A stretch of 64,000 nt of DNA from Stenotrophomonas maltophilia R551-3 (GTDB lineage Bacteria; Pseudomonadota; Gammaproteobacteria; Xanthomonadales; Xanthomonadaceae): positions 3,152,501-3,216,500 of the forward strand of contig NC_011071.1 of the NCBI RefSeq assembly GCF_000020665.1, written 5' to 3'. Shown in pieces: positions 60,238-63,895 of this stretch. The notes under the pieces were generated by a model that saw only the letters and a program-made list of their open reading frames with translations, was not told where the DNA came from and did not search any database. A program made the translations under genes and the position numbers. Within the stretch, counting starts at the first letter, position 1. Every line of letters starts with the position of its first letter.

Positions 60238-61154
60238 CGTCGCAGGCGGGTCACCAGCAGTACGCCGATCAGCACCAGCACGGTGCCGGCGATCTGTGCC
60301 GGCCCCATCGGTTCGTCGAGCAGCCATAGGCTCATCACGATGGTGGAAACAGGGCCCAGCATACCGACCTGCGCGGCCAGCGACGAACCCACGCGCTGCA
60401 CCGCCAGCATGATCGCCAGCACCGGCAGTACGGTACACACGGTGGCGTTGACCAGCGACAGCCACTGCACCGGGGCCGGTGCCTGCCACAGCAGCGGCAG
60501 CGGATGGGTGATGGCGAAGTGCAGCAGCACCAGCACGCTGGCCACGCAGCTGGCATAGGCAGTCAAACGCACCGCGCCGATGCGCGCGACCACCTGGCCG
60601 CTGCCGAACAGGTACAGCGCGTAGCTGAGTGCACTGCCCAGCACCAGCAGGCTGCCGAGGATGATCTGCCCGCCCTCACGCTGCAGGTCGTGGCCAAAGG
60701 CGATCAGCACGCCGATGTAGCTCAGCAGCAGCGCAGCGACCTGCCAGCGGCCGGGTCGCTGGCGGGCCAGCAGCACGTTGATCAACAGCACCAGCGTCGG
60801 GTTCAAGTACAGGATCAATCGTTCCAGGGTCACGCTGATGTACTGCAGCCCCTGGAAGTCGAGCAGGCTGGACAGGTAGTAGCCGGTGAAGCCCAGCCAC
60901 AGCACGCGTGCACGGTCGCGCCAGGACAGCGGTGCGGCACGGCGCGCGGCCCACAGCGCCATCAATGCGAACAGCGGCAGTGCCATCAGCATGCGCAGGG
61001 CAAGCAAGGTGGTGGCGTCAACGCCGTGGCGCAGGCCAAGCTTGACGATGATCGCTTTGCCGGATGCGGCAATGGCGCCGATCGCGGCCAGACCAATGCC
61101 ACCCAGCGCGATGCGCGGGGAAGCGGTGGCGATACGGGAAGCAGGGTTGGACAT
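60234..61154 (-). CDS. EamA/DMT-superfamily transporter
   Basis: A 306-residue inner-membrane protein with about ten predicted helices in two EamA repeats (about 15-150 and 160-300); the second repeat has VGMLGPVSTIVMSLWLLDEP, the usual signature. Likely exporter of an amino acid or metabolite; no substrate can be assigned. The ATG at 61154 gives the natural start; the frame upstream is not coding-like. It is followed by the ATL gene with a 4-base overlap. Confidence 0.9.
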   Translation of the reverse strand: MSNPASRIATASPRIALGGIGLAAIGAIAASGKAIIVKLGLRHGVDATTLLALRMLMALPLFALMALWAARRAAPLSWRDRARVLWLGFTGYYLSSLLDFQGLQYISVTLERLILYLNPTLVLLINVLLARQRPGRWQVAALLLSYIGVLIAFGHDLQREGGQIILGSLLVLGSALSYALYLFGSGQVVARIGAVRLTAYASCVASVLVLLHFAITHPLPLLWQAPAPVQWLSLVNATVCTVLPVLAIMLAVQRVGSSLAAQVGMLGPVSTIVMSLWLLDEPMGPAQIAGTVLVLIGVLLVTRLRR

Positions 61155-61233
61155 CAGGACGACGGCGGGCCGCGCGGAGCGGCTGGGGAAAGCGTGGGGG
61201 CGGCCATTGTCGCATGGAGGCGTCCGATCCCCT

Positions 61234-61299
61234 GTAGAGCCGAGCCCGCGCGCGGCTGCACCATGTCTGGCGAAAAGCAGCCGAGCATGGCTCGGCTCT
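61234..61299. repeat. SMAG pair split by the IS110 element
   Basis: GTAGAGCCGAGCCCGCG... on the left and CAGCCGAGCATGGCTCGGCT at 61279-61298 on the right. The expected final AC of CTAC is missing here and is found at 62524-62525, after the insertion sequence. Joining 61299 to 62524 gives CTCGGCTCTACAACGGC, the same sequence as at 35010-35024. Confidence 0.88.
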
Positions 61300-61332
61300 T
61301 GTGTCTTGGATCGTGCCCTGATCAGGCACAAT

Positions 61333-61525
61333 CCCCCGGTGACCCGGGAGGCTCCGATGACGCTGCCTCGGCTCTTAAGCCTTCGAGCTTGCAAAGTAGA
61401 TTCAGCGCGTCGGCGGCCTGACACCGCCATGGAACTTGAACGGTATCTTAGGCCCGCCATCGGGTGAGAGCCTGTACTCACAAGGGCAAGTCTGGCGGCT
61501 TCCGATCACGATCGTAAGTTCAAGC
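61333..61525 (+). ncRNA. Predicted IS110 bridge RNA (ends approximate)
   Basis: The left end shows, in order: a 5' hairpin (CCCGG-TGAC-CCGGG, 61335-61348); a target loop closed by CGCTG (61361-61365) with CAGCG (61403-61407), holding CTCGGCTCT (61367-61375, identical to the target at 61291-61299) and GTAG (61396-61399, complementary to CTAC across the right junction), with an inner AAGC/GCTT hairpin; and a donor loop closed by CCGCCA (61424-61429) with TGGCGG (61493-61498), holding ACGGTATCT (61440-61448, identical to the right end at 62515-62523) and CACAAG (61479-61484, complementary to CTTGTG at 61298-61303). This is the bridge-RNA plan known from IS621. Exact 5' and 3' ends are inferred. 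Confidence 0.82.
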
Positions 61526-61537
61526 TGGAGCGAAATC

Positions 61538-62503
61538 ATGCAATTTATCGGCATCGACGCAGCCAAGGCGACTTTTGACATCGCCCTGCCTCTATCTCAC
61601 GGCAAGTATCGAACCAAGGCCAAACTCCCCAATACGCCAAAGGGTTTTGATGAGCTTCTGGCCTGGCGCGCCAAACATGCGCCGAACGCGGCGGTAGGTA
61701 TGGAGGCTACAGGCATCTATCACGAGGCCTTGGCTCAAGCACTGGTGGAAGCGGGGGTAGTGGTTCATGTGGCCAATCCCGCCCGAGTAAAGGCGTTTGG
61801 GCAGGCGGAGGGGATGCGGACCAAGACTGACCGCAGCGACGCCAAGCTGATTGCCCGGTTTTTTGAGGCACAACGCTCGGAAAAGCTGTATCCCTACGTT
61901 CCACCGACGCCCTCGGAGGTGAAGCTGCGCGCCTTGGTACGGCGTCGAGATGACCTCCAGGAAATGCTGCAGATGGAGCACAACCGCCTGGACGTTGCCG
62001 ATATCTCGGTCCAGCAAGGGATCAAGGATGTGATCCGGACGTTGGAAGAGCAGATCAAGCAGGTCCAGAAGGCGATTGAGGACCATATCGATAACGATCC
62101 GGACCTGCGCCGGCGTCATCAACTGCTTACCAGCATCCCCGGTGTAGGCAACACCAGCAGTGCCCAGCTGTTGGCCATGCTGGGGGATCTAAGCAAATAC
62201 AGCGACGTGCGCCAGGTGGTTGCCCACGCGGGCCTGAATCCGGCCCAGCGTCAATCAGGAAACTACGAAGGCAAATGCCGGATATCACGCGTCGGCGACG
62301 CCAATTTCCGCAAAAAGCTGTACATGCCGGCGCTGACCGGGAAGACCCACAACCCCACACTGAAGTCCTTTGCAGACCGGCTCAGCGCGAAAGGCAAGCC
62401 CTTCAAGGTCGTCATGTGTGCAGTGATGCGCAAGCTCATCCATCTGATTTGGGGCGTACTGAGAAGTGGCCGACCCTTTGAGCCTGACGTCGCCCTTGCC
62501 TAG
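61538..62503 (+). CDS. IS110-family transposase (bridge-RNA recombinase type)
   Basis: A 321-residue recombinase. The N-terminal RuvC-like DEDD site is intact: D7 (GIDAAK), E55 (GMEATG), D97 and D100 (KTDRSDAK). A coiled coil follows (about 130-185). The C-terminal Transposase_20 domain (SIPGVGNTSSAQLLAMLG) carries the likely catalytic Ser239 in RQSGNYEGKCR. The ATG at 61538 has GGAG nine bases before it, next to the predicted bridge RNA end. All catalytic residues are present and the frame is open, so the element may still be active. Confidence 0.95.
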   Translation: MQFIGIDAAKATFDIALPLSHGKYRTKAKLPNTPKGFDELLAWRAKHAPNAAVGMEATGIYHEALAQALVEAGVVVHVANPARVKAFGQAEGMRTKTDRSDAKLIARFFEAQRSEKLYPYVPPTPSEVKLRALVRRRDDLQEMLQMEHNRLDVADISVQQGIKDVIRTLEEQIKQVQKAIEDHIDNDPDLRRRHQLLTSIPGVGNTSSAQLLAMLGDLSKYSDVRQVVAHAGLNPAQRQSGNYEGKCRISRVGDANFRKKLYMPALTGKTHNPTLKSFADRLSAKGKPFKVVMCAVMRKLIHLIWGVLRSGRPFEPDVALA

Positions 62504-62536
62504 GCGAGGGCGACACGGTATCTACAACGGCCCGGC

Positions 62537-63895
62537 TCAGCGCATCAGCACCACTTCCTCGGCCGAGGTCGGGTGGATCGCCACGGTGTCGTCGAACTGG
62601 GCCTTGGTCGCGCCCATCTTCACCGCCACCGCGAAGCCCTGCAGGATCTCATCCGCGGCCTCGCCCAGCAGATGGATGCCGACCACGCGTTCTTCCGGGC
62701 CGGCGCAGACCATCTTGAACAGGCTGCGCTGGGTGCCATTGGCCAGCGCCTGCAGCATCGGGCGGAAACGGCTGTGGTAAACGCTCACCTGGTCGAAGCC
62801 TGCGCGTGCGTCTTCTTCGCTCATGCCCACCGCGCCCAGCGGCGGGTGCGAGAACACCACGCTGGCCACGTTCTCGTAATCCATCTTCGACTGCGGGCGG
62901 CCACCGAACAGGCGGTCCATCAGCCGCCGCGATGCGGCCACCGCCACCGGGGTCAGGCCAACCTTGCCGGCGATGTCACCCACCGCGTGCACGCTCGGCA
63001 CGCTGGTGGTCTGCCATTCGTCCACCTGCACCTGCTGGTGTTCGCCAATGCCGATGCCGAGCGCTTCCAGGCCCAGATCACGGCTGTTGCCGCGACGCCC
63101 GGTGGCAAAGAACACCGCATCGAACACGTTGTCGAGCGGACCGTCATGGCCGAACGCACGCACCCGTTCGCCATCGCGCTGCAGTTCGCGCAGGCGGTAG
63201 TTGAAATGGATGCGCACGCCCTGCTGTTTCAGGTTCTCGGCCAACTGATCGGTCAGCTCGTAGTCGAAGCGCTCCAGCAATCGCTTGCCGCGCACCAGCA
63301 GGCTCACGCGGCTGCCCAGCGCCTGCAGCAGGCCGGCCAGTTCCACCGCGATGTAACCACCCCCGATGATCGCGACCTCGGCAGGTGCCGCGCGCAGATC
63401 GAAGAAATCGTCGGAGACCAGGCCCAGTTCGGCACCCGGAATGTCGGGCCGCAACGGGTGCGCACCGGTGGCGATCAGGATGTGCTCGGCGCTGTAGCGC
63501 ACACCGTCGCTGCAGGCCACGGTGTGCGCATCCAGCAGATGGCCACGCGCCGGAATACGCACCACGCCGGTCTCATCCAGGCGTTTGTGGTAGCTGGTGT
63601 GAATGTTGCTGATGTAGGCCTGGCGATGGATCACCAGTTCCTTCCAGGAAAGCGCCGGGCGCGCTTTTACATCGAAGCCCATCGCACTGGCCAGGCCGAT
63701 GCGCTCGTGCAGGTCGGCTGCCAGCCACATCGCCTTCTTCGGCACGCAGCCGACATTGACGCAGGTCCCGCCCAGTTCGCCCGGCTCCAGCATCGCCACA
63801 CGCTTGCCGTGCTGTGCGGCGCGGATCGCGCCAGCCAGGCCGGCGGAGCCGCCGCCAAGGACGATCAGGTCGTAATCATAGGGTGCAGTGCTCAT
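62537..63895 (-). CDS. gor: Glutathione-disulfide reductase
   Basis: Reduces glutathione disulfide with NADPH. It has 452 residues. The FAD loop VLGGGSAGLAGA is near the start, followed by the redox-active GGTCVNVGCVPKK. The NADPH loop GGGYIAVELAG is followed by Arg residues (VRGKRLLERFD), which favour NADPH over NADH. The C-terminal active-site His is in HPTSAEE. This is glutathione reductase rather than lipoamide dehydrogenase, by the CVNVGC spacing and HPTSAEE. Its ATG overlaps the stop of an upstream oxidase-like gene (ATGA). Confidence 0.93.
   Translation of the reverse strand: MSTAPYDYDLIVLGGGSAGLAGAIRAAQHGKRVAMLEPGELGGTCVNVGCVPKKAMWLAADLHERIGLASAMGFDVKARPALSWKELVIHRQAYISNIHTSYHKRLDETGVVRIPARGHLLDAHTVACSDGVRYSAEHILIATGAHPLRPDIPGAELGLVSDDFFDLRAAPAEVAIIGGGYIAVELAGLLQALGSRVSLLVRGKRLLERFDYELTDQLAENLKQQGVRIHFNYRLRELQRDGERVRAFGHDGPLDNVFDAVFFATGRRGNSRDLGLEALGIGIGEHQQVQVDEWQTTSVPSVHAVGDIAGKVGLTPVAVAASRRLMDRLFGGRPQSKMDYENVASVVFSHPPLGAVGMSEEDARAGFDQVSVYHSRFRPMLQALANGTQRSLFKMVCAGPEERVVGIHLLGEAADEILQGFAVAVKMGATKAQFDDTVAIHPTSAEEVVLMR

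Follow-up and report, generated by a model that had tools for sequence, protein, structure and literature searches.

The 64,000-nt window of Stenotrophomonas maltophilia R551-3 analyzed here contains an IS110-family element of the IS621 type, and a bridge RNA promoted in the element's circle very probably directs its entry into the GTAG end of one class of SMAG repeats. Direct support for this reading comes from sequence matches, seven copies of the element, empty sites, homology and guide–target covariation. Transcription, circle formation and strand exchange are proposed by analogy with IS621. On that analogy, the excised circle would join the right and left ends and assemble a sigma70-like promoter, from which the bridge RNA would be transcribed out of the left non-coding end. 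Through its target loop this RNA would pair with CTCGGCT-CT-AC of a SMAG, and through its donor loop with ACGGTAT-CT-TGTGT, the junction of the element itself. The DEDD/Ser recombinase would then exchange strands beside the CT core, so that insertion would take place at the GTAG end of a single SMAG class. The features are listed in Table 1.

Table 1. Features of the element, its predicted bridge RNA and its target (window positions)
Feature	Position	Strand	Basis or remark
SMAG (GTAG-tagged REP) pair	61234..61299	.	Imperfect-stem unit starting GTAGAGCCGAG at 61234 and interrupted unit
Left target (LT), CTCGGCT + CT core	61291..61299	+	Flanks of copies; empty site of relatives
IS110-family element between two CT cores	61300-62521	+	Seven genomic copies; 1222 bp, 1224 with one core
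5' hairpin of predicted bridge RNA	61335..61348	+	Fold prediction, RNAalifold
Predicted target-binding loop (TBL) with closing stem	61349..61419	+	Fold prediction, arm pairing
Left target guide (LTG), CTCGGCTCT	61367..61375	+	Equals 61291-61299; covariation
Right target guide (RTG), GTAG	61396..61399	+	Complementary to core + RT, CTAC
Predicted donor-binding loop (DBL) with closing stem	61424..61498	+	Fold prediction, RNAalifold, arm pairing
Left donor guide (LDG), ACGGTATCT	61440..61448	+	Equals right end + core, 62515-62523
Right donor guide (RDG), ACTCACAAG = AC-TCA-CAAG	61476..61484	+	Split pairing with CTTGTGT at 61298-61304
IS110 recombinase, 321 aa (PF01548 + PF02371; NF033542)	61538..62503	+	Domain, profile and structure matches
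Right-end part of sigma70-like promoter, complete only in circle, TTGCCT-17-TATCT/T	62496..62523	+	Last T from 61300
Right end (left donor), ACGGTAT + CT core	62515..62523	+	Sequence
Right target (RT), AC, rest of SMAG tag CTAC	62524..62525	+	Sequence and empty sites

The recombinase scored 262.6 bits against the NCBIfam model 'IS110 family RNA-guided transposase' (cut-off, 140), and its residues 2–315 matched the IS621 recombinase chain 8wt6, a solved structure, with E = 3.9e-69. The first-pass annotation had ascribed to it the D-E-D-D and Ser residues of bridge-RNA recombinases. We located these at D7, E56, D98, D101 and S240, which are invariant across a 29-row alignment and align with D11, E60, D102, D105 and S241 of IS621, the catalytic residues named in PMC11208158. 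IS621-type elements share the DEDD RuvC-like domain with Transposase_20 and its catalytic residues (D, E, D, D, Ser), and also the long non-coding left end placed before the gene (238 nt here), with a predicted 5' hairpin, TBL and DBL. The arrangement of the IS1111 group (seekRNA), with the guide region downstream of the gene, was not found, as the guide region here lies upstream. For example, ISPa11 of that group is likewise an RNA-guided DEDD element that enters a REP, but according to PMC11187229 its non-coding region is downstream and its guide order reversed, whereas the window element is of the IS110 type. Judged from its sequence, the element is a previously undescribed bridge-RNA element of the IS621 type. 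The same genome has another, distant IS110 gene (G000:C1:563301-564173; 32% identity).

Four guide-like matches had been proposed in the left non-coding end (LTG, GTAG, LDG and CACAAG at 61479–61484), and all were verified. The CACAAG match is present, but by the IS621 structural rule the RDG is longer, with AC and CAAG pairing with CTTGTGT and the bases between them skipped. The LTG, RTG, LDG and split RDG each occur once in the actual sequence. To gauge how often such matches arise by chance, the 238-nt non-coding end was dinucleotide-shuffled 40,000 times; 117 shuffles contained the left-target 9-mer, 10 contained the right-end 9-mer and 1 contained both, in counts that imposed neither order nor spacing. 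The right end reads ACGGTATCT at all 35 loci read; of 23 distinct elements, 11 have an LDG identical to this constant end and 12 have one that departs from it at the final one or two bases. Between the RDG and the left end, all six split pairs form in 12 of 13 distinct combinations (the exception is L081), with AC facing GT (3), AT facing AT (9), CAAG facing CTTG (8) and TAAG facing CTTA (5). Where both the RTG and the RT were read (35 loci), the pairs were GTAG–CTAC at 24, GCAG–CTGC at six and ATAG–CTAC at five, and the RTG of P. batumici matched its target at three of four positions. In the sequences compared, the RTG (GTAG; GCAG where the target is CTGC) and the RDG vary together with their partners.

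The two loops had been described as closed by the stems CGCTG/CAGCG and CCGCCA/TGGCGG. Both stems are in the predicted fold, but the stability of that fold is only slightly better than that of shuffles, with z = –1.56, and 12 of 200 shuffles equalled or exceeded it. Conservation of a two-loop fold across homologues was likewise recovered in part: the RNAalifold consensus of 21 left ends contained 31 pairs, 23 of them with at least one pair-keeping double change, and included two 5' hairpins and the donor loop, but not the target-loop stem. We therefore applied an arm-pairing test to the latter, in which the flank helped to choose the guide position. Across 23 elements, the target-loop arms had a mean of –23.3 kcal/mol within elements and –18.4 between them, and the donor-loop arms –11.3 and –8.2, respectively; for either loop, none of 20,000 re-pairings was as good. 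An Rfam search of 61000–62700 returned no family at its gathering score. In the S. cyclobalanopsidis copy (L052:1245-1500), part of the guide and linker (CGGCTCTTAAGCCTT) is tandemly duplicated inside the target loop.

Joining the right end to the left end places TTGCCT and TATCTT at a spacing of 17 bases. Each matches the sigma70 consensus at 4 of 6 bases, and this consensus match marks a putative RE-LE junction promoter like that of IS621-type elements. TTG-17-TATCTT stands at a fixed offset in 22 of 22 distinct junctions read; since the –10 lies inside the conserved donor, this conservation is not independent of that of the donor.

Seven full copies of the element are present in the window's genome (G000), and in all seven CTCGGCTCT forms the left flank and CTACA the right flank. 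Six of them, counting the window copy itself as the first, show 0, 0, 0, 0, 2 and 5 base differences relative to the window copy, and the seventh is 100% identical after rounding. At the orthologous position in other Stenotrophomonas genomes, the element was absent from all 24 loci (130 nt viewed in each), and an exact uninterrupted CTCGGCTCTAC was found in seven of them. As in IS621-type elements, the insertion point is a CT core and the empty site is scarless. At L006, a tandem duplication has the element in one of its units; the other retains an uninterrupted GCTCGGCTCTAC and is an empty site within the same genome. The targets had also been called safe, which was partly shown: the window copy is intergenic, but the other six were only crudely checked.

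Among 91 Stenotrophomonas genomes, with at most eight candidates per genome scored, close copies of the left end were found in four (G000, G479, G471 and G009) and a more distant left end in G030. The first-pass annotation had named unrelated targets of other copies with unchanged guides as a finding that would refute it; every one of the 23 copies with a readable left end has CTCGGCTCT as its left target (seven in G000 and, as copy numbers outside G000 are lower bounds, at least six in G479, four in G471 and six in G009). The guide could be read in 17 of these 23, as CTCGGCTCT in 16 and TTCGGCTCT in one; in the other six it is cut at contig ends (five in G009) or by an internal deletion (one in G471). 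The RT is CTAC in 13 of the 23 copies and in three G471 copies, and the remaining seven have no readable right end. The G471 copies (L197–L200) keep the left end and SMAG target with differing internal deletions; in three the right end lies at +789, +638 and +217, and a search over 1.8 kb gave no exact right-end motif in the fourth.

We then compared guides with targets across relatives. The 39 loci taken were 29 of the 80 relatives' loci, nine further loci and the window element, 37 of them with a left end; L072, L073, L075 and L083–L130 lay outside the guide reading. Guide columns taken directly from a MAFFT alignment had most rows one base out of register and gave no signal (own mean, 2.53 of 7; cross, 2.24; 29,294 of 200,000 re-pairings as good). 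This reading was accordingly replaced by one that was anchored on the hairpin and blind to the flank, and then by one over four linker lengths. Flank-blind reading succeeded at 34 of the 37 loci (L058, L071 and L081 were dropped because no hairpin was found), and of 112 non-core positions in the 16 distinct LTGs, 101 agreed with the element's own target, compared with 80 for the best of 200,000 re-pairings. In the second reading, four linker lengths were open to own and foreign targets alike; G030, G479 and G471 were added, and L081 (6 nt of left target only), L051 and L134 (no left end found) were left out. For these 26 elements, LTGs and own targets agreed at 218 of 234 positions, and none of 100,000 re-pairings gave more than 174. 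This statistic ignores descent, and L064/L065, L132/L133/L138 and L001/L169/L175 are near-identical.

LTG and RTG matching the target, LDG and RDG matching the donor, and a shared core, as in IS621-type elements, were found with two sets of misfits, Acidithiobacillus and G030. In the flank-blind reading, the Acidithiobacillus guides fitted poorly (L069, 3/9; L076, 2/9; L077, 2/9; L078, 7/9), with L069 and L076 reaching 6/9 once the guide was shifted by one base. The G030 guide also required a one-base shift and then matched at 7/9, both misses being wobble-compatible; its six sites are CCGCACCT (3) and CCGCATCT (3), the latter with one extra mismatch. For both, the matches in the 26-element reading hinge on the freedom of linker length. 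L082 has two mismatches, neither of them a wobble. Taken as a natural comparison of sequences, these readings provide clear evidence that guides and targets change together.

A guide that resembles its flank might instead be flanking DNA captured after insertion, which would record the target rather than choose it. The LTG does equal the flank in the window, but the identity ends at exactly 9 nt and the same guide lies beside seven insertion sites in G000. Moreover, the single mismatches of L052, L060, L080 and L132 are wobble-compatible, as expected for pairing and not for copying. The same kind of wobble pair occurs in IS621, which encodes ATCGGGCCTAC and has the natural target ATCAGGCCTAC. 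We consider such capture very improbable, and retain the reading in which the guide selects the target.

The target is a SMAG, or GTAG REP, in which a GTAG tag lies beside a short palindrome present in many genomic copies. The stem of the interrupted unit, at 61279–61297, is AGCCGAGC-ATG-GCTCGGCT. The window has 30 perfect hairpins tagged with GTAG or GTGG, a list that may include chance hairpins, two of them in the GTAGAGCCGAG class; the imperfect-stem unit at 61234 and the interrupted unit come in addition. The proposal that the element is programmed for SMAG repeats is well supported, but for one SMAG class (GTAGAGCCGAG) and not for SMAGs in general. In PMC2817692, this class corresponds to the tabulated Smal1 REP of S. 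maltophilia R551-3, and two further target sequences agree with printed REPs, namely a P. putida W619 REP and GTAGGGTGGGCTTCAGCCCACC, printed for H. influenzae.

Palindromes are common targets: a perfect stem of at least 6 bp lies within 4 nt of the core in 12 of 23 distinct left flanks (11 of 15 with CTAC as RT, none of six with CTGC and one of two with RT unread). This pattern would also suit recognition of the REP by the protein itself or as an extruded hairpin, with the guide-like matches coincidental or inherited. However, some 6-bp stems were reached by 39–57 of 2000 shuffles, and such a stem is lacking in the six CTGC flanks (L076–L078, L082, L131 and L135) and in four of the 15 CTAC flanks (L058, L066, L068 and L070). 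Guides also change in step with targets, and insertions occupy a single SMAG class despite the presence of others. With these observations, protein or hairpin recognition has very little probability in our estimation, and RNA guidance remains the preferred explanation. At L131 and L135 (genome G261; RTG, GCAG), the core lies within the left arm of a palindrome on the right-target side and there is no GTAG tag; the palindrome arms at L131 are GTTCCTGCG and CGCAGGAAC.

We counted exact target 11-mers on both strands in panels of 17 genomes (nine for CCCGCAYCTAC). The very many targets foreseen by the first-pass annotation were found, with 139 exact uninterrupted CTCGGCTCTAC in G000; there were 363 in G009 and 0–2 in the other 15 panel genomes. 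The counts of GCCGCTCCTAC were 387 in G134, 84 in P. shirazensis and at most 27 in the other 15; those of GCCCACCCTAC were 109 in Stutzerimonas and at most 16 in the other 16, including Rhodoferax, which has one even though its element bears that guide; and those of CCAGCTCCTAC were 103 in P. batumici and at most 14 in the other 16. CCCGCAYCTAC occurred 193 times in G030 and 5–13 times in the other eight. Because some genomes also had many copies of the backwards-read control pattern (up to 105 for GCCGCTCCTAC, 68 for CCAGCTCCTAC and 36 for CCCGCAYCTAC), counts were judged against other hosts and the control of the same host (G000, 1; G009, 0; G134, 60; P. shirazensis, 20; Stutzerimonas, 1; P. 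batumici, 20; G030, 20) and not against an empty background. CTCGGCTCTAC was found 93 times in G471 and 120 times in G479, and at no site in G030. Nine of the 10 hosts counted were rich in the 11-mer occupied by their element (84–387 copies), and Rhodoferax had one. The guide of the Rhodoferax MAG element (L059) fits GCCCACCCT, of which the binned genome has one site; the contig may derive from another organism. At least 90 CTCGGCTCTAC sites, a threshold chosen after the counts had been seen, are present in 30 of the 91 Stenotrophomonas genomes, including all four carriers, and only these 4 of the 30 have the element. Target abundance does not predict the presence of the element.

IS621 of Escherichia coli (PMC11208160; PMC11208158) shares with this element a recombinase homologous over nearly its whole length, the CT core, the junction promoter (putative here), a 9-nt LTG, a 4-nt RTG and a split RDG. 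The REP tag is cut at the same place, the natural target of IS621 being ATCAGGCCTAC compared with CTCGGCTCTAC here; the target stem and LTG differ. The LTG–RTG linker is 20 nt here and 19–21 nt in the relatives read, compared with 18 nt by the published IS621 numbering. ISPpu9 and ISPpu10 of Pseudomonas putida, likened here by description, are also IS110-family elements that insert into REPs, though different ones, and all copies in P. putida KT2440 lie within REPs with 2-bp direct repeats (PMC1525189). REP targeting by IS110 elements is already established for IS621, ISPpu9 and ISPpu10 (PMC1525189), as is the bridge-RNA mechanism with broad guide–target covariation (PMC11208160). Within the literature searched, which excluded supplements and subscription papers, we found neither the SMAG case nor a single lineage that keeps a GTAG-reading guide and rewrites the other half for each host.

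In a tree of 17 recombinases drawn with a midpoint root, 12 proteins group at 100/99 support: ten from Pseudomonas, Halopseudomonas or Stutzerimonas, one from a Rhodoferax bin and that of G134, from the window's own family. This mixture of host families indicates that the lineage has crossed between them. It seems somewhat more probable than its converse that one bridge-RNA lineage, mostly of Gammaproteobacteria, is a specialist of GTAG REPs in which the RTG, reading a tag common to many REP classes, is near-fixed and the LTG is rewritten for the REP stem of each host, even within one genus, as between G000 and G030 of Stenotrophomonas. If this is the case, the spread of REPs driven by RAYT transposases would keep supplying landing sites. 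The elements make up a series from several hosts in which the guide of a programmable recombinase has been rewritten in nature, with donor ends conserved, the RTG nearly constant and the LTG changed. Such a series supplies guide–target pairs ready for assays and natural hints on wobble tolerance, and offers a direct route to how elements alter their guides upon a change of host.
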